Of a DNA stretch of 64,000 nt, positions 8,952 through 63,669 are shown piece after piece. The stretch is from positions 14,965,501-15,029,500 of the forward strand of contig JAUKPH010000017.1 in NCBI GenBank assembly GCA_030549335.1. Direction: 5' to 3'. The position numbers were made by a program, and so were the translations under genes. Each line of letters opens with the position of its first letter. The first letter of the stretch is position 1. This DNA is from Pontederia crassipes (taxonomy: Eukaryota; Streptophyta; Magnoliopsida; Commelinales; Pontederiaceae). The notes below the pieces were generated by a model, which was given only the letters and a program-made list of their open reading frames with translations, was not told where the DNA came from and did no database searches.

Positions 8952-10397
8952 CTACAAAACGAGCACCTTAACGTCGACGGTGCCGCATAGGGAGAATATC
9001 GACCACGGATTGTTGTGCTTGTGGTTCAACTTGGCGCGCCACCTCTTGATGTTGGAGCTGCAGTGCTTGTTCACGGCGGTGACGAGGTCGGTGAGGTAGG
9101 TGCCCTCGAAGTCCGCGGACACCTCGCGGCAGAGCTTGTTGAAGATCCTGGCGGCGGCATCGTCGTCACCCAGCCCGTTGACGATGACGCCGCTGCTGTG
9201 GAGCAGCGCCACGTCGGCGGCCGTCTCAATGATGCAGTCCATGAGCGCGGCGTAGGTGGTGACCGCGTTGCCGGCGCTCGGGAAGCACTGCTCGAAGGCG
9301 ATCATGTTGCGCAAGAGGTACTTGGTGACGTCGAACACGCCCATCTCCGGGATCTCAATGCGGCCGTCCCGGAACGTGACGTCCAGGAAACTCGCCGCGT
9401 TCTTCTTCCTCTTGAACTTGATTCCGGCCTCCCTCAGCTTCGTCGCGTAGCGGATGGAGTCCACGAGGAGTTCGGAGTGGCAGCGCCGGCTCCGTCGCAC
9501 GACACTCAACTTGCCGAACGACAACAAGGAAGAGCGACGCCGGAGCTGAGATAATAAGCTCTTGGTGTACGTCATCTTCTTCTTGTAAGGCGTGTGGATC
9601 CTTTGCTCGACGTCGACGCAGTCTTCGGGGGCGACAGGCAGAACAGAGGAATAGAACAGATGGAGGAGATGGTGGAACTCTGAGCCCTGGGACAAGACCT
9701 GTCTGTTCACGAGCAAGCGGTCGTCGATCTTTAATAAACAGCGGAAAGAAAGCGCCGCCAGAGATACGTTCACCGGAGCCGTGTCGTACAGCAGCTGGAG
9801 AACGAAGAAAGGGAGCTGGTTCTCGAGCATTAGCATGTCGACCAGCACCCGCCACACCGCCCACGAGGTGCCCGTGATCAGATCGTCGTACGGCCCCGGG
9901 TCTCCGTCAACGTGTCGCTTGAGGAACAGCTCCACGACGAAGCAGCCGTCGAGCAGCAGCATCTCCACGAACTGGTTGGTTTCCATCTCTGGATCCTCGG
10001 AGTAGGCCCTGCGGGCGCGTGCTTCGACCGCTTTGAGCCTCTTGAGGCACTCGTCGAGGCTCCTGTCAGGGTTCCGCGTGAGGAAGTCTCCGAGGTAGCA
10101 CAGCTTGAGCTCCTCCATAGCCTGCAGGTGCTGCTTGCCGCGGTGGTAGGGGCCGATGGAGACCATCTTCGGCCCGTAGGCTTCGGCGTCAGTCTCCCGG
10201 ATGTTTCTGGGCACCCGAAAGATGGTAACCGGCTGCTTCGTCTCGGCCTGCCGCAACCTCCGGGAAGCGCCTTGGACCCTTTGCCTCAGGGATAGGACCC
10301 AGTGCTCGTCCAACTGCTGCGACGACCACGGCGACTCGTCGAGTGCTACGACGTGGTGATCGTGTTTTTCGGTCCAGGACGCCATGTCCGTCGTCAT
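8952..10397 (-). CDS. DUF247 family protein, copy 1 (lacks C-terminal membrane segment)
   Basis: A 481-residue member of the plant-specific DUF247 family (UPF0481, PF03140). Marks seen: IFRVPRNIRE (about 59-68), MVSIGPYHRGKQHL (78-91), LLLDGCFVVELFL, DMLMLENQLPFFVLQLLYD, KLREAGIKFKRK, RNMIAFEQCF and a late NPWSIFSLCG. The biochemical role of the family is unknown; members usually end in one membrane-spanning helix, and in grasses some act in self-incompatibility. Here the reading frame stops 11 residues after NPWSIFSLC with TVDVKVLVL, so the helix seen in copy 2 is missing. I chose the ATG at 10397 (MTTDMASW); an in-frame ATG at 10523 would add 42 unrelated residues. The ATG equivalent to the start used in copy 2 lies 7 bp upstream but is out of frame because of a small insertion. 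Single exon, GC-rich against AT-rich surroundings. The short tail means it may be a decaying gene. Confidence 0.85.
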   Translation of the reverse strand: MTTDMASWTEKHDHHVVALDESPWSSQQLDEHWVLSLRQRVQGASRRLRQAETKQPVTIFRVPRNIRETDAEAYGPKMVSIGPYHRGKQHLQAMEELKLCYLGDFLTRNPDRSLDECLKRLKAVEARARRAYSEDPEMETNQFVEMLLLDGCFVVELFLKRHVDGDPGPYDDLITGTSWAVWRVLVDMLMLENQLPFFVLQLLYDTAPVNVSLAALSFRCLLKIDDRLLVNRQVLSQGSEFHHLLHLFYSSVLPVAPEDCVDVEQRIHTPYKKKMTYTKSLLSQLRRRSSLLSFGKLSVVRRSRRCHSELLVDSIRYATKLREAGIKFKRKKNAASFLDVTFRDGRIEIPEMGVFDVTKYLLRNMIAFEQCFPSAGNAVTTYAALMDCIIETAADVALLHSSGVIVNGLGDDDAAARIFNKLCREVSADFEGTYLTDLVTAVNKHCSSNIKRWRAKLNHKHNNPWSIFSLCGTVDVKVLVL

Positions 10398-10845
10398 GGT
10401 CCATCCCTCGCTCTCCGGCGTGGTAGATAATAAGAACCTGGATTCGATAAGGTCGCAAACGGGGGGCATGCGAGGGGGTTTTGTTCCGCCACGATTAATA
10501 AGAAGTACAAACAACGTCAGCATAGCCGAAATAAGTCAGCATCTGCTCCCTGAAATCTAAAGTCGCACCTGTTTCGAGACAGCGAAAGCGAAGGAGAAGA
10601 TGCCGTTCTTGTTGTTATACCTAATTAGCAATTTTTCTTTGATGGTTATCCGCTCTTATCTTTATTCAGACTGTACAAGTTCTTCCCAGGGACCAATGTA
10701 AAAGTTATTTATCTTTTATTTCCTTTTTAAAATTTATTTTATGTTAGTTCACTGACCTTACTTTTGAACCTATCATTGATGAAAGAAATATGGGCTAAGT
10801 ATTAATATGTAACAATGGAAATCCAATTGTGACGACCAGGTTTGA
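10398..10845 (-). promoter_or_regulatory. Upstream region shared by both DUF247 copies
   Basis: This 5' flank aligns with 57109-57545: shared GGCGTGGTAGAT, CTGAAATCTAAA, GACCAATGTAA, GTTAGTTCACTGACCTTAC and ATTAATATGTAACAATGG blocks in the same order. The duplication therefore carried the likely promoter and leader with the gene. Similarity ends near 10845. I see no clear TATA box. Confidence 0.55.
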
Positions 10846-19039: not shown

Positions 19040-19686
19040 TGTCACGGGGTCATTCTCGGACACTAGACCACGTGCGGCGACTAGGCGGATAAGCACCTAG
19101 CCAAGCCTGTTTTGAATTTGCAGCGGAAGTTTTATGTTCGAGACGACTATGCCGAGAATCGCTCTTATATGCATTCAATCACGGACGTGACTAGAGTGTT
19201 GGACTACTCATCATGGGACCGTGGCATTGGCACATTGCGGCACCAATGCAGGCGCTTGGGCGCTTAAAGTCTGAAGGGGCGATGAAGGGACCACGGGACG
19301 TCACGAAGGGACACCGATGTGGGTTGTCACCCCACGCTCAAGGCCATGACACTAGAATTAAAGGAAAGCTTACTTGTATTAAATATGATGAAACATAACA
19401 TACAATTGGGCCTCGGAAGGCACTAGTGAACTCCTCCCAGTGTACCATAGGTATAGGAGTCTTATTACATATTGAAGATGCAAAAGACGTACCCTACGGG
19501 AACGTCACCTACTTGGCCATTCATAAGGACGGCCTTATAAGATAAATTCCCTAAAGGCGGATAACTTGGTACACCACAATATTACGCAGTGCGGGGCGGC
19601 GGCATGTGTTCCAAGATTTCCGACACTGAGCGGCACTGGTGCCGCGATGCTTCACGCTTCGTGTCACAGGAAAACACCCCATGACA
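19040..19686 (-). mobile_element. 3' LTR of the 19040-23359 element
   Basis: About 647 bp, aligned along its length with 22691-23359, for example TCATTCTCGGACACTAGACC and GAGTGTTGGACTACTCATCA in both. TG...CA ends are intact. Confidence 0.8.
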
Positions 19687-20139
19687 TTCTCCCCCACCAA
19701 AGTCGACGACGCCTCCGACGTCGTTGTCCGGGCTTCCTCGGAGTCTTCGTCTTCAGTCTTGACTTCGCTTGTCTCGTTCAATTCTGCCTTCTTTGCCTTG
19801 ACTTCTACTTCACCAGTTTTGCGCAACGCCAGGAATGCCTGCTCCTTGGGGTCTCGCTGAGGACTCCTCCCTCAGGCCTGCTTCGCTTGCTGATCCTTCG
19901 TCCAATCTGGGGTCATCACTTGTGCAGCGTTAGTGGAGTCCGCCATGTGCGGTCTGACTTCATCAAGCAACTATCCGTCCATCAAGTCTTTATTGGATTC
20001 ACTTCTCTTCGACTTATGCAGTGTCAACTTGTTTGGTTTGGCTCCTTTGGGGGTGAAACAACTCTTGTATGCCTTCAGGGATAGTTCGGAGAAGAGTTGT
20101 CTCAAGGTCGTGCAGAACACGATGAAGAGTCTCGCCATT

Positions 20140-22690: not shown

Positions 22691-23359
22691 TATTACGGAG
22701 TCATTCTCGGACACTAGACCACGTGCGGCGACTAGGTTGATAGGCACCTAACCAAACCTGTTTTGAGTTTGCAGCGAAAGTTTTATGTTCGAGACGACTA
22801 TGCCGAGAGTCGCTTTTATAGGCATTCAATCACGAACATGACTAGAGTGTTGGACTACTCATCATAGGACCGTGGCATTGGCACGTTGCGGCACCAATGC
22901 AGGCGCTTGGGCGCTTAAAGTTTGAAGGGGCGATGAAGGGACCACGGGACGCCATGAAGGGACACCGATGTGGGTTGCCACCCCACGTTCAAGGCCATGA
23001 CACTAGAATTAAAGGAAAGCTTACTTGTATTAAATATGATGAAACATAATATACAATTAGGCCTCGGAAGGCACTAGTGAACTCCTCCCAGTGTACCGTA
23101 GGTATAGAAGTCTTATTACATATTGAAGATGCAAAAGACGTACCCTACGGGAACGTCACCTACTTGGCCATTCATAAGGATGGCCTTACAAGATAAATGC
23201 TCTAAGGGTAGATAACTTGATACTCCGTAATATTACGCAGTGCGGGGCGGCTGCATGTGTTCCAAGGTTTTCGGCACTGAGCGGCCGAGAGCTATAAGTT
23301 GAGCGGCACTGGTGCCGCGAGGCTTCACGCTTCATGTCACAGAAAAACGTCCCGTGACA
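22691..23359 (-). mobile_element. 5' LTR of the 19040-23359 element
   Basis: About 669 bp; its first two bases are mutated (TA rather than TG) and it contains about 22 extra bases near 23282-23303 relative to its partner. Ends GTGACA at 23359. Confidence 0.8.
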
Positions 23360-23832
23360 TTCACGGGTCGGGTTGGACTCGATCCATGAACAAACCGGAC
23401 CCAACCTGACCAAATTTGGTTGGGTCGGACCCAACCCGACCCAGTTCGGGTCGGGTTGGGTGGTCGGGTTATCTGACCACCCAATTTTATTTTTTTAAAA
23501 TTTTTTCTTACTATTTTTATTTTTATATAATATTAAAAATATTATTTTATATTTATTTTAAATCATAAAAGAAAGTTTTAAACTATTTAATATTATTTCT
23601 GTACTTAAAATATTTTATTTTAATTTTATTTTAAAATTTTAAATCAAATACAAGCTTGAGTTTAAATAAAAAATAAAAAAAATAAAAAAGTAAAAAAGTA
23701 AAAAAATAAAAGAATTGGATCATTCGGGTCGGGTCGGGTCACCTCAGGTTAGAAAAATCCAACTCATACCCTAGTTTGGGTCGGGTCGGGTCGTCGGGTT
23801 CGCGGGTCGACCCGACTCGCTGAACACCCCTA

Positions 23833-42573: not shown

Positions 42574-42852
42574 TCTTGGAGCGTGGACTTTGGTGGTCAT
42601 AAAAAAAACACACACACACCAGAAGAAAAAGTTTAACAATAACTGGAGAATGATGACCAATTCAATAGCCGTAACGTATCAACCAAATAACACACAAAGG
42701 ATAAAATAAAACAAATTAAGCAGAATGAGACAACGCAAACTACACAAGTGTCCCATAATTAATCCCCCATTTGCGCCGACTTTATTGTCTGAATCTTACT
42801 TGTCGTCGCAGTTGGATGCAGCCTCAAGAATCTTTCATTTTTCAGGTCCGAT
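42574..42852. other. 3' flank of the four-exon gene
   Basis: Short spacer between the solo LTR duplication and the stop codon of the 42853-43791 gene; it would hold the 3' untranslated region and poly(A) site. No motif is certain. Confidence 0.3.
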
Positions 42853-43791
42853 TTATTTAGTTGAGGAGTCTCTGGATGGATCTCCTGGAAAAAGAGTTTG
42901 CATTGATCAACACATATAAATCATGTTCTACATAAACGAAGAGATTAAGATCGTGATCAGAGAACAATATATGACCAAGTGCATACCATCCGCAACAGAG
43001 AATGCCTTCCTGGGATTTCGTTGCAGTGTTAATCCGGAGAGAGATTCAACTGAAAATTTGCAAACTGGATGAGTGCGTATATACATATGCTATCAAGCAA
43101 AAGGAAGAACAAGAAGAAAAATTAAGAACTTTTAGAATGAAAAAGAAAAAAAAAGATGTTTTGGAAGCGTATTTCTGATCATACCACCCCTGGATGTGAT
43201 GACAGGCTCACTGTTGGATGTTTGCTTCTTATCGCCGTCGGGGCCTTGCTTCTTATCAAGATGTGCCGCTTCAAGAACACGCGACTTCACGTTCGCCATC
43301 TGGTGCCGGAGATCAGTAACGAAATGATGAAACGTTGCGCTTAATCCTTCCTCTCCATGGGCGGTGTTGTCTGAATCTGCCGGTGGAGCGCCGTCTCCGG
43401 CGACGTTGCCTTGCCTTCCTTCTTCCGGCCCTTCTTGATCCGACGATCGATAAAATAGTTAATATATATACTGAAGAAAGTTTTATTGCCAAAAAGCTAA
43501 TTAACTGTTAAGATTCTTTTATAACCTGATTTCAGGCAAGAACTCACTTTAAAGATGAATTTTCCCATGGGAATTTGATGTCACTCATGATCGTTCTTAT
43601 GATGTCTTAAAGCAGTGAAATCAAACATATGCAAGTATATAATATCCCTTGTAGTTTGTTTTAACAATAATCTGAATGAAATCATATGTTCTCATACCAC
43701 TCCTGGATGTCGAAGATTCAAGCGATTCATCTCCGCCGGCGGCATGGTGGGCGTTGTGTTCCTCGCCCTCGACTCCTTCCTGCCCAGCCAT
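42853..43791 (-). CDS. Small four-exon gene, 145-residue protein of unknown function
   Basis: Exons on the minus strand: 43698-43791, 43185-43433, 42987-43049, 42853-42884; total 438 bp including TAA, divisible by three. Each intron starts GTATG; introns 2 and 3 end in TTTTCAG and TTTTTCCAG after pyrimidine runs, while intron 1 must end at a weak ATCAAG site to keep the frame. All three introns are in phase 1. The protein starts MAGQEGVEGEEHNAHHAAGG, is acidic, has no Cys, Trp or Tyr, no signal peptide and no membrane helix. One amphipathic helix is likely (FHHFVTDLRHQMANVKSRVL), the rest looks disordered. I do not recognise the family. Exons 1 and 2 end with near-identical sequence at the splice site. 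A TATA-like box lies upstream. Each exon is short, so single-frame scans miss it. Confidence 0.6.
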
Positions 43792-43896: not shown

Positions 43897-43905
43897 CTAT
43901 ATATC
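43897..43905 (-). promoter_or_regulatory. TATA-like box of the four-exon gene
   Basis: The minus strand reads GATATATAG here, about 105 bp upstream of the ATG at 43791, a normal distance for a plant promoter with a leader of roughly 75 bp. Confidence 0.45.
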
Positions 43906-45891: not shown

Positions 45892-46775
45892 CACTACAAG
45901 AAAAAAATTGTTGAATAGTGATGATAATTAGCGCCTCCTAACTCGCAACGCTAAATCTACACCATCGCAGCGTCACCGCAGCATCAAAAGAAGAGCGTAG
46001 CAGAAAGCTTCTCTTTTGCCTCGGCTTACCGTTGTCTTCACATTACAATAATGTGACGCCATCTTGGGGCCTTCTCGATGCTACGACGACACCATTAGTG
46101 CACGCGTGCGCGAACAACCAAACATGTGGTAAATGTCAGCGCTATGTTAGCATCGAAATATTGTGACGTTGCACTATCTACTTTAGCTAGCGCTGCAAGC
46201 AAGCCGGCGCCAACACCAGGCTAACTTGAGAGCTTATTCTCAGCATGATAGTGGTGTCGGTCCATTGTGGCGCTAAAACTATTGCATCATAGATTGTTGT
46301 GACACTAATGTGATGCTGATATTGGTGAAATTTAGCATCGCATTTTGGCTGATGCCAATGTGACATTGATGTGCGTTAATGTTCAGTGTCGTGGAGGCGT
46401 CGGCTTGTGTGGCGCTAAAAGTGTCACGCGGCAGGCTTGGTGATGCCCATGTGACGTTAATGTGGCGCTGCATTCGAGGCGTGACTAATGTGACGCTAAG
46501 GCGATGCCAATGATAATACATATACATTTCATATACTAAACTTTAATTAATAAATTAATTATTATTGTATTCATAGAAGTGTACTAATACAAATATGTAT
46601 GTATATAAGTATAAGAATAAAAGAGACTATTTTCAATGCGTCGCTATTTCATCACAAACTTGTTAATAAATTCATTGAATGCACATAAATAGAAGTATAT
46701 ATATATATATTGATTTGTATTTAAGTTTATATATGTTACCTATACTATATTTTAACATATATATGTATATCGATA

Positions 46776-47133
46776 GGGTTATTTCCTTAGACTTCCTCTA
46801 AATTATTGTGATTATTCATATCTAACCCTAATTATGAACTTAATTTTTCGTATCCTTAAACTATCACGAATTTTTCACTTTAATCCTTCAGTTTACTTCT
46901 GTTAAGTTTTCAATTATCTTTGCTTTTTCATTGATGTGTTTTAGAGGGAGGGTAATTTAATCTTTTCATACATGAGAAAAAGGAAAAAAATAGAACACTT
47001 AATTACAAAAGTAGACGAAAATGATCAAAGTGAAAAATTCGCGATAGTTTAGGGATATAGAAAATTAAGTTCTTACTTTGGGGTTAGATGCGAAAAATCA
47101 TGATAGTTTAGGGGAGGTCTAAGAAAATAACTC
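46776..47133. mobile_element. Mutator-like MITE with 9-bp target duplication
   Basis: ATATCGATA occurs directly at both sides (46767-46775 and 47134-47142). Between them the ends are inverted copies for over 100 bp: GGGTTATTTCCTTAGAC at left against GTCTAAGAAAATAACTC at right, then CACGAATTTTTCACTTT against AAAGTGAAAAATTCGCG. About 358 bp, non-coding. Confidence 0.8.
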
Positions 47134-47149
47134 ATATCGATATACATAT

Positions 47150-47301
47150 ATGTTGATATATGTGTATATATGCATATGTTGATATAACTAGGTAATATAA
47201 AGTTATAAACTTTTGTTGATATAAACTTACAATTAGGTATACATATATGTTGATATAATTAGATATGCATATATGTTGATATAATTAGGTAATATAAACA
47301 T

Positions 47302-55641: not shown

Positions 55642-57108
55642 TCAATTCCCAGGACGCATGTATTGCAGGACTGATAAGATGGTCTGCACCAAGGTGAAGA
55701 AAAGCAAGACGGCGGCGCCGCAGAGGGAGATGATCGACCACGGATTGTTGAAGTAGTTGTGGTTCAACTTGGCGCGCCACCTGTTGATCTTAGAGTCGCA
55801 GTGCCTGTTCACGACGACGACGAGGTCGTTGAGGTATGTGCCATTGAAGTCCACGGACACCTCGCAGCAGAGCTTGTTGAAGAGCCTGGCGGCGGCGTCG
55901 TCGTCGCCCAGCCCGCTGACGATGACGCCGCTGCTGTGGAGCAGCGCCACGTCGGCGGGCGTGTCGATGATGCAGTCCATGAGCGCGGCATAGGTGGCAA
56001 CCGCGTTGCCGGCGTCCGAGAAGCATTGCTCGAAGGCAATCAAGTTGCGGAGGAGGTACTTGGTGACGTCGAACACGCCTATCTGAGGGATTTCGATGCG
56101 GCCGTCCTGGAATGTGACGTCCAGGAAGCTTGTGGCGTCCGTCTTCCTCTTGAACTTGATTCCTGCCTCCCTCAGCTTCGTCGCGCAGAAGATGGAGTCG
56201 TCCCGGGGCTTCGCTGCAGCAGCAGCGCTCAACTTGCAGAACAACGACGCGGAAGAGCAGCGCCAGAGCTGAGATAGGAAGCTCTTTGTGTCCGTAATCT
56301 TATTCTGGTGAGGCGATTGGATCCTTTGCTCGTTGCAGTCTTTGGATGCAACTGGCAGAACAGAGGAATGCATCATATGGAGGAGATGATGGAAGTCTGA
56401 ACGCTGGTACGAGACTTGCATGTTGACGAGTAAGCAGCCGTTGATAAAGCCGAGAGAAAGCTCCGCCAGAGACTTTTTCACCGTAATCGTGTCGTACAGC
56501 AGCTGAAGGACGAAGAAAGGGAGCTGGTTCTCGAGCATGAGCATGTCGACCAGCACCAGCCACTCCGCCCACGAGGGAACCCTGATCGGATCGTCGTACG
56601 GCCGTGATTTCCTTTCCTCTTCCTTGAGCAACAGCTCCACGACGAAGCAGCCGTCGAGCAGCAGCATTTCCACAAACTCGTTGGTCTCCATCCCCGGATC
56701 CTCGGAGTAGGCGCTGCGGGCGCGAGCTTCGACCGCTTTGAGCCTCTTGAGGCACTCGTCGAGGCTGCTCTCGGGGTTCCGATCGAGGAAGTCGCTGAGG
56801 TAGCTCAACTTGAGCTCCTCCATGGACTGCAGGTGCTGCTTGCCGCGGTGGTAGGGGCCGATGGAGACCATCCTCGGCTCGTAGGCTTGGGCATCGGTCT
56901 CCCGGATGTTTCTGGGCACCCGGAAGATGGTGACCGGCAGCTTCGTCTCGGCCTGCCGTAACCTCCGGGAAGCGACATCGACCCTTTGCCTCAGTGACAG
57001 GACCCAGTGCTCGTCCAACTGCTGCGACGACCACGACGACTCGTCGTCGAGTGCTACGACGTGGTGATCGTGTTTTGCCCGGACGCCATGTCCGTGGTCA
57101 TGATCCAT
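55642..57108 (-). CDS. DUF247 family protein, copy 2 (full length)
   Basis: A 488-residue, single-exon member of the plant DUF247 family (PF03140), within the usual length range. In order: a His/Asp-rich start, IFRVPRNIRETD (61-72), MVSIGPYHRGKQHL (80-93), LLLDGCFVVELLL (149-161), DMLMLENQLPFFVLQLL (188-204), KLREAGIKFKRK (311-322), a FLDVTF..GRIEIP block (328-341), LRNLIAFEQCF (353-363), NKLCCEVSVDF (411-421), NPWSII, then one hydrophobic helix at about 459-482 and a short tail. Family members are thought to be membrane-anchored by this helix; their biochemical role is unknown, and in grasses some are male determinants of self-incompatibility. Start at 57108 gives MDHDHGHGVRAKH and follows a CT-rich leader. 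It is the likely functional partner of the truncated copy at 8952-10397. Confidence 0.9.
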   Translation of the reverse strand: MDHDHGHGVRAKHDHHVVALDDESSWSSQQLDEHWVLSLRQRVDVASRRLRQAETKLPVTIFRVPRNIRETDAQAYEPRMVSIGPYHRGKQHLQSMEELKLSYLSDFLDRNPESSLDECLKRLKAVEARARSAYSEDPGMETNEFVEMLLLDGCFVVELLLKEEERKSRPYDDPIRVPSWAEWLVLVDMLMLENQLPFFVLQLLYDTITVKKSLAELSLGFINGCLLVNMQVSYQRSDFHHLLHMMHSSVLPVASKDCNEQRIQSPHQNKITDTKSFLSQLWRCSSASLFCKLSAAAAAKPRDDSIFCATKLREAGIKFKRKTDATSFLDVTFQDGRIEIPQIGVFDVTKYLLRNLIAFEQCFSDAGNAVATYAALMDCIIDTPADVALLHSSGVIVSGLGDDDAAARLFNKLCCEVSVDFNGTYLNDLVVVVNRHCDSKINRWRAKLNHNYFNNPWSIISLCGAAVLLFFTLVQTILSVLQYMRPGN

Positions 57109-57545: not shown

Positions 57546-57633
57546 ATCATACATGTTAGAATTAGGTAAAAGATAAATGGTACATAGAGGGCTCATATTT
57601 TACAATTTGATCTCTTACAATTAGTTTTTGATA

Positions 57634-57851
57634 AAAAAGTATCAAGAGGAGGTAAATTAGTGTTTAAAATCAATAAAATTAATTTAAAATGTTAAACACG
57701 AAAGTTTAAAATTGATTAAAAAATTAAAGTCAAACACAATAGAATGAGGAGGAAGAGATATTTTTTTAATCAATTTTTAAACTTTAGTGTTTAACCTGTT
57801 AACTCAATTTTACTGATTTTAAACACTAATTTACCTCCTCTTGATACCTTT
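57634..57851. repeat. Inverted repeat of about 85-bp arms made from LTR-edge sequence
   Basis: Left arm (57634-57720) reads AGTATCAAGAGGAGGTAAAT then TAGTGTTTAAAATCAATAAA; the right arm (57766-57851) is its near-perfect complement. The loop is about 45 bp. The arms resemble the edge of the copia-type LTRs (GAGGGGGTGAATTGGTGTTT), so two LTR ends seem to have been joined head to head. Confidence 0.75.
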
Positions 57852-57854
57852 TGA

Positions 57855-58429
57855 TCCAACAGTAATCAAGTCTTTTTCCTCGAGAGATAAGGTGACAAGC
57901 TCTCTTACAATGAGCTCAAAATCTCACAGGAATGCCAATCACTTTACTTTTACAAATGGTCTACAATGAACTCGCGATCTACAATGAACACTGCAGCACA
58001 TCTTGATATGGCATGCTGGTTGTATTTGGAGCTTTATAGTACTGTTGAGCCGTTGACCCATTGCAAGGATGCAAGGATGTGAAATTCTTCTTATGTTCCT
58101 GGCCTACAATATGGCAATCATACATACATGTTTAAAGCAATTACTTCTAAGCATCCATTTGCTTAAACACATCTCAGCATCACTAGTTGGCACCAGTAAG
58201 TTTATGTCGGGAAAAAAACAAAATGTTGGGAAGAGGTTGCCTAGCTGCATCACACAATGGAATACATTGCTTTGTGAAAGCTCCCAGCACACATCATCTC
58301 TTATGAAAGTTTTCTAAAAGTTGAGGAAGACCAAAAACTCCACAACACGTCTTATGAACAACCTAAAAGCAATTAAAAGAGATACTTGATTATACCTTCT
58401 TATTCATCTTGTTTCAATTCATCATCATC
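57855..58429. other. AT-rich spacer, nothing recognised
   Basis: Follows the inverted repeat; no gene or repeat supported. Confidence 0.3.
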
Positions 58430-62918: not shown

Positions 62919-63669
62919 CAAAACATAAAAAAATTACACCAAATGCTCTCCAACTTTGACGTGTGCTCAACGATATCCTCCAATTTCACACTTTGTAACA
63001 TGAATGCCCTCCATCTTTTAACTCGTTTCACCTGGTGCCCTCATTACATACGATCGGCCATCTTCCGATCATGGAGCTGATGTGGCGCTGACACAACGTC
63101 TTCTCTCCTCGACACGTAGACATTGCAATGACGTAATAATATTGAAAAATTTTAAAAAATAATTAAAAAATGCCACATCGCTAGAAGGGCGACCCTCCTC
63201 CAGTGCAACGGCAGTCGCGTGGGAGGCCCCCGCCTGAGGGGGGTGGGGTCCTTTTGCTTGCGTGCGTCGGGTGCACGCAGGCAGGCAAAGGAGGGGGGTC
63301 GCCCCCATGCGAGCTCCGTCGAGAGCTCGCGGGGGCGACCACCCACCCCCCCATCTCCGACGATGGACTCCAGCACGTCGGAGAAGGAGGGTCCCCTCTC
63401 CAGTGACGTGGCAATTTTTAGTTATTTTTTTTAAAAAAAATTAATATTATCATGTCATTGCTATGTTTACGTGGAGGGGAGAGAAGATGCTGTGTCAACG
63501 TCACGTCAGCTCCGTGACTGAAAGATGATCGATCACAGGTAAGAAGGCCACCGGGTGAAACGAAGTAAAAGATGAAGGACATTCATATTACAAAGTGAAG
63601 TTGGAGGGTATCGCTGAGCAAACGTTAAAGTTGGAGAGCATTTGGTGTATTTTTTCCTCGAAACATATT
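62919..63669. mobile_element. Mutator-like element with 250-bp inverted repeats and GC-rich core
   Basis: ATTGTCACTC lies at both borders (62909-62918 and 63670-63679), a perfect 10-bp target duplication within the Mutator range. The outer roughly 250 bp at each end are inverted copies: CACCAAATGCTCTCCAACTT against AAGTTGGAGAGCATTTGGTG, and so on through GGAGCTGATGTGGCGCTGAC. The core, about 63185-63405, is very GC-rich, while the inner arm edges are AT-rich. Open frames in the core overlap on both strands and show no family. Confidence 0.85.

Follow-up and report, generated by a model that had tools for sequence, protein, structure and literature searches.

At the S and Z self-incompatibility loci of grasses, SDUF247/ZDUF247 pairs occur together with the stigma determinants sS/sZ (HPS10), secreted peptides of 82-122 aa with two conserved cysteines (PMC13033167). 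The locus analyzed here lies in a window, by which we mean the whole 64,000-nucleotide stretch of Pontederia crassipes contig C17, and resembles the grass loci in that a small gene (gene A) sits among DUF247 genes, the DUF247 copy D2 being about 12 kb away. In contrast to the grass loci, each contig here carries two small genes (gene A and gene B) along with three DUF247 copies. In contrast to sS/sZ, the small gene has no signal peptide as judged by hydropathy, no Cys in any of four copies, and a product of 141-184 aa; the missing signal peptide, the missing Cys and the excess length rule out membership in the sS/sZ kind. With respect to the DUF247 family (PF03140), D0, D1 and D2 belong, whereas the adjoining small gene itself gave no DUF247 match in the Pfam search. 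A second likeness is to plant orphan genes: gene A is short and mostly disordered, has no significant Pfam or PDB match, and only local copies of it were found within its own genome. Gene finders readily overlook small genes whose exons are short and whose products have no known domain; this one was found by reading the raw sequence, and comparison upholds it as a gene.

Two of the DUF247 copies lie inside the window:

55642..57108, minus strand: DUF247 D2, 488 aa, PF03140 E=7.9e-119, upstream of gene A
8952..10523, minus strand: DUF247 D1, 523 aa, PF03140 E=1.9e-111

D1 and D2 score 373.7 and 398 bits with PF03140, whose gathering cut-off is 24.8. The sequence-only reading had placed the gene between two DUF247 copies, which is correct for D1 and D2 in the window and leaves out a third copy, D0, to the left of it. 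D0 was assigned to DUF247 by alignment and is open on both C17 and contig C18 (533 and 534 aa). Along the minus strand of C17, 5' to 3', the order is D2, gene A, D1, D0, gene B, and all the DUF247 copies named fall within about 60 kb; the order on C18 is identical, and a DUF247 gene stands upstream of each small gene on both contigs (D2-A and D0-B).

Gene A as proposed comprises four minus-strand exons of 94+249+63+32 nt (438 nt, 145 codons plus TAA) separated by introns of 264, 135 and 102 nt, all of phase 1 and GT-AG, with three GTATG donors. Exons, frame, donors and intron phase were all recovered at the proposed positions. The features of the locus are as follows:

43897..43903, minus strand: TATA-like box (TATATAG) lying 106-112 nt before the gene A ATG; TATATAGAG aligned in all four copies
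43698..43791, minus strand: exon 1, 94 nt, 31 codons plus 1 nt
43434..43697, minus strand: intron 1 as proposed, 264 nt
43185..43433, minus strand: exon 2, 249 nt, with alternative starts at 43430, 43421 and 43418; contains the predicted helix
42987..43049, minus strand: exon 3, 63 nt, with the conserved motif LQRNP-[RK]-K-x-FSV
42853..42884, minus strand: exon 4 with stop, 32 nt, encoding GDPSRDSSTK and the stop
42781..42786, minus strand: possible poly(A) signal AATAAA; CAGACAATAAAGT in all four copies

The phase symmetry noted for exons 2 and 3, which in principle would let either be skipped in frame, is real and recurs in A18 and B18. The claim that the gene is invisible to single-frame scanning holds for ATG-led frames and is limited to them, since exon 2 lies within a 108-aa stop-to-stop frame at 43135-43458. 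Rfam at the gathering score gave no matches here and ARAGORN no tRNA genes. We note that exons 1 and 2, where they end and including their donors, share a 19-bp near-repeat (18/19; 43179-43197 and 43692-43710), which may be left over from an old exon duplication or may be coincidental.

The host genome (1.132 Gb, 43 contigs) was searched with the A17 and B18 proteins and with gene A DNA. Four copies were found, forming pair A (A17, A18) and pair B (B17, B18) on C17 and the collinear C18:

this window, contig C17, minus strand: A17, the copy under study
about C18:4447.3-4448.3 kb: A18, copy of gene A
about C17:14956.4-14957.4 kb: B17, some 8 kb left of the window
about C18:4376.7-4377.7 kb: B18, copy of gene B

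Pair A and pair B are 52 kb apart on C17 and 71 kb apart on C18. A and B proteins are 60-63% identical (63% in the alignment), and A17 and A18 96%; for exon 2, amino acid identity is 96% with C18:4447640-4447891 and 59-60% with the B copies. Other weak genome matches had E-values of 1.51 and 3.04 and, in another search, nine had 0.65 or more; because scoring is confined to the best candidates, a distant relative may have escaped notice. We consider it fairly likely that gene A is restricted to its lineage or evolves fast. A weak match on contig C1 (E=1.23) was rejected because its frames looked unrelated by eye. A candidate distant paralogue on contig C14, suggested by an exon-3-like match at C14:73298567-73298626, was likewise dismissed: it belongs to a 70-bp patch (C14:73298575-73298644) matching the acceptor-2/exon-3 region of B18, and at 99% identity to B18 the patch is a recent fragment. 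This patch sits in a second DUF247 cluster, where about 12 DUF247 places fall in the interval 72.3-73.31 Mb.

The four copies allow each splice site to be followed across natural versions of the gene. The ATG context of exon 1, GGACATGGC, donor 1, GTATGAGA, and acceptor 2 preceding exon 3, GCAAATTTTCAG, are kept in all four. Donor 2 is intact in three, and donor 3 reads GTATGCA in three and GTAGGCA in B18, the GT itself being present in every copy. All four have an in-frame last exon, its length and acceptor context differing between A and B: the ending is GDPSRDSSSK in A18 and DSDSS in B18, each before the stop, and B17, read from the alignment, likewise ends in DSDSS and a stop. The one element of the model that fared badly is the proposed acceptor 1 (TCAAG, at 43434), which is present in A17 alone, the other three copies having TCATG, and is therefore probably not the site used. 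Alternative acceptors, all in frame and open, lie 3 nt downstream (in three copies) and 12 and 15 nt downstream (both in all four); among the 15 nucleotides upstream, pyrimidines number 6-8 for the +3 site, 4-6 (poor) for +12 and 2-4 for +15. Judging from these sites, the true 3' end of intron 1 may instead lie at 43431, for an intron of 267 nt, or at 43422, for one of 276 nt. Depending on the acceptor, the gene A protein would have 145, 144, 141 or 140 aa, and the conserved in-frame sites 12 or 15 nt downstream make 140-145 aa the probable range. An acceptor at TTCTTCAG, 37 nt upstream, was rejected, since A18 is the only copy in which it keeps the frame; in A17, B17 and B18 it does not.

If the model were no more than splice-like sites strung together by chance in intergenic DNA, an acceptor 1 that is not conserved is what one might see, and this is the point in favor of that reading. 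The shuffle test and the comparison of the copies stand against it. Among four-exon ATG-to-stop chains whose donors are GTATG and whose introns are all phase 1, the longest real one measures 612 nt on the minus strand (a longer variant at the same locus), and none occurs on the plus strand. Of 40 dinucleotide shuffles of the window none reached 438 nt (best 411 nt), nor did any of 300 shuffles of the local 2.8 kb; the constraints were taken over from the finding itself, the shuffles imposed no pyrimidine requirement, and shuffling evens out the local G+C contrast. Because these constraints are post hoc, the comparison between copies was used as the decisive support. We regard the chance that there is no gene here as very small.

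When a single four-exon scheme using the +12 acceptor is applied to the four copies, three of them encode complete open proteins (A17, 141 aa; A18, 154 aa; B18, 184 aa). B17 has lost donor 2 through a 12-nt deletion and has no complete frame under the common scheme, and in B18 an in-frame TAG immediately precedes the +12 acceptor common to all copies; one of the B copies may therefore be in decay. Intron 2 of B18 (about C18:4376780-4376920) is 141 nt long, stop-free and in frame, so its retention would add a hydrophobic stretch.

We quantified selection on the coding frame in comparisons within and between the pairs. Within pairs, dN/dS was 0.23 for A17/A18 and 0.43 for B17/B18 (pooled, 0.36); in the four A/B comparisons it was 0.58-0.78, so that constraint is weaker there than within pairs. 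The A pair differs by 9 synonymous and 7 nonsynonymous changes (dN 0.022, dS 0.096) and the B pair by 15.5 and 24.5. Synonymous bias, by Fisher tests on rounded counts, gave p values of 0.004 for A17/A18, 0.007 for B17/B18 and 0.03 for A18/B18, the sole A/B pair put to this test; with the within-pair comparisons pooled, p was 0.0004. Insertions and deletions point the same way: 13 of 19 in exons 1-3 were multiples of three against 17 of 65 in introns (p=0.00014), the counts coming from three pairwise comparisons that share sequences and are not independent, and for the B pair alone the figures are 3 of 7 in exons against 4 of 16 in introns. Under random substitution the frame stayed free of stops in 3090 of 5000 runs at the A-pair distance, 1339 of 5000 at the B-pair distance and 334 of 5000 at the A18/B18 distance; since within-pair runs often stay open, an open frame is informative only at the A/B distance. 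By raw identity, exons (95-97% in the A pair, 93-97% in the B pair) are hardly better kept than introns (93-96% and 94-99%), so constraint is modest.

These data bear on two further readings. A spliced non-coding transcript, its open frame incidental, would account for the conserved TATA-like box, splice sites and AATAAA, which fit any transcript; the synonymous bias and the excess of in-frame exon indels argue against it, and we give it hardly any weight, slightly less than a chance chain. A young or decaying gene, one that formerly coded, has since come under relaxed selection and keeps its frame open chiefly for want of time, deserves more attention: the donor-2 loss in B17, the TAG in B18, the weak contrast between exons and introns, and the state of the neighboring DUF247 genes on C18, with D1 split and D2 ending early, are all consistent with it. 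It is set against synonymous bias in both within-pair comparisons and complete frames in A17, A18 and B18, and we judge it improbable, though a serious minority reading. The splice sites shared by the four copies, the exon indels that mostly keep the frame, the synonymous bias and the three open frames indicate instead that gene A, as had been claimed, is very probably a real spliced coding gene. The explanation we prefer, and hold to be probable overall, is a genuine and likely functional small gene that belongs to the DUF247 cluster and was duplicated there. From these sequence features we infer its expression and splicing. The natural variation among the four copies, including the loss of a splice site in one of them, provides a direct handle for expression and selection tests.

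The relationship between the two contigs affects how the A17/A18 divergence is read. Half a megabase from the locus, C17 and C18 remain collinear, with 91-92% identity. Contigs C1-C16 resemble eight size pairs, the even-numbered one being longer in all eight, and from C17 onward sizes descend (18 of 27 contigs sampled); matches to the primase large subunit fall on C11/C12 and C13/C14, those on C11/C12 containing stops. For this species a tetraploid genome with eight pseudochromosome pairs is described (PMC10938897). The contig pairing, primase pairs and collinearity suggest that C17 and C18 represent homoeologous subgenomes. High allelic polymorphism is a trait of the grass stigma determinants; since the contigs are probably homoeologues and not alleles, the divergence of A17 from A18 is no evidence of balancing selection.

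The predicted protein is acidic and lacks Cys, Trp and Tyr, as the sequence-only reading had it: A17 has a pI of 5.2 (145 aa) or 5.4 (141 aa) and none of the three residues. The other copies have pI values of 4.05-5.15, and across all four copies Cys and Trp are absent and Tyr occurs at most once. The highest 19-residue hydropathy is 0.66, without a membrane segment, and by hydropathy alone no signal peptide was seen, the best 8-residue mean within the first 30 residues being -0.42 to 0.39 in the four copies. Single-sequence AlphaFold2 prediction on the 82-residue exon-2 piece returned one helix, residues 27-58, with pLDDT of 95 and 96 in the blocks at its center, 51-68 in the blocks outside it and 69.8 on average. 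In the four-copy alignment, invariant columns cluster in this predicted helix and in the tail motif QRNP-K-FSV. The assertion that the product matches no known family holds as far as Pfam and PDB searches go: for A17 (145 and 141 aa) Pfam gave no family above the gathering score, the other copies gave non-significant matches at E 0.16 (VBS) and 4.9 (VIR_N), one member each, and the PDB gave no match for the A17 protein, the profile giving two at E 1.3 and 1.5, not significant.

These properties lead us to a tentative picture of the product, possible but less likely than not, as an intracellular disordered adaptor or regulator. A minus-strand transcript of four exons with phase-1 introns would yield an acidic, largely disordered protein of 140-145 residues with neither signal peptide nor membrane segment, which would act inside the cell. 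Its disordered arms would bind partners and its predicted helix would serve pairing, and we infer that the conserved basic C-terminal motif LQRNP-[RK]-K-[AS]-FSV, with its serine, may be a docking or phosphorylation site.

Whether gene A works with its neighbors is a separate matter. That its product acts together with the neighboring DUF247 proteins seems doubtful, position being the one line of evidence. A narrower version, by analogy with sS/sZ at the grass loci, would make it a small determinant working with those proteins. The shared cluster and strand and the D2-A and D0-B pairing on both C17 and C18 would fit; the lack of a signal peptide by hydropathy, the absence of Cys and the length of 141-184 aa would not. 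DUF247 genes are also many in this genome, with matches on many contigs (at least 116 pieces; best 88 of 228 candidates), and beside a close DUF247 copy at C17:14.254 Mb the same searches found no small gene, so pairing is not obligatory. We consider such a determinant quite improbable. A DUF247 cluster outside the grasses might also have recruited an unrelated small intracellular partner gene that was duplicated with it, which we rate as a very long shot; if true, the cluster could have a part in recognition between pollen and pistil or in controlling floral morph, along some other route than that of the secreted sS/sZ peptides. The Pontederia (water hyacinth) group is tristylous, and Pontederia cordata is named as such in a literature listing. 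Among the matches listed for DUF247 with Pontederia, Eichhornia or Commelinales, none contains DUF247, and among those listed for DUF247 with orphan gene or gene cluster, one contains DUF247 and none, judged by title and opening of the abstract, concerns gene A, which does not prove it unpublished. Its place among DUF247 genes makes gene A worth including in surveys of DUF247 clusters outside grasses.

Several other observations concern the surroundings. On C18, an insertion of about 11 kb that carries retrotransposon-like frames interrupts D1 (C18:4412446-4424770), and D2 (C18:4467260-4468522) ends early at 420 aa. In D1 of C17, a different tail replaces the C-terminal hydrophobic helix of D0 and of D2 on C17. 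The D2 copies of the two contigs (dN 0.134, dS 0.19) diverge far more than the D0 copies (dN 0.023, dS 0.06). Within the window, positions 19044-19689 and 22695-23362 are direct repeats some 650 bp long that share 90% identity and start 3.65 kb apart, the probable LTRs of a retroelement, and imperfect self-complementary stretches at 62929-63655 (73%), 46747-47161 (75%) and 57620-57866 (81%) are probably foldback or MITE-like elements.
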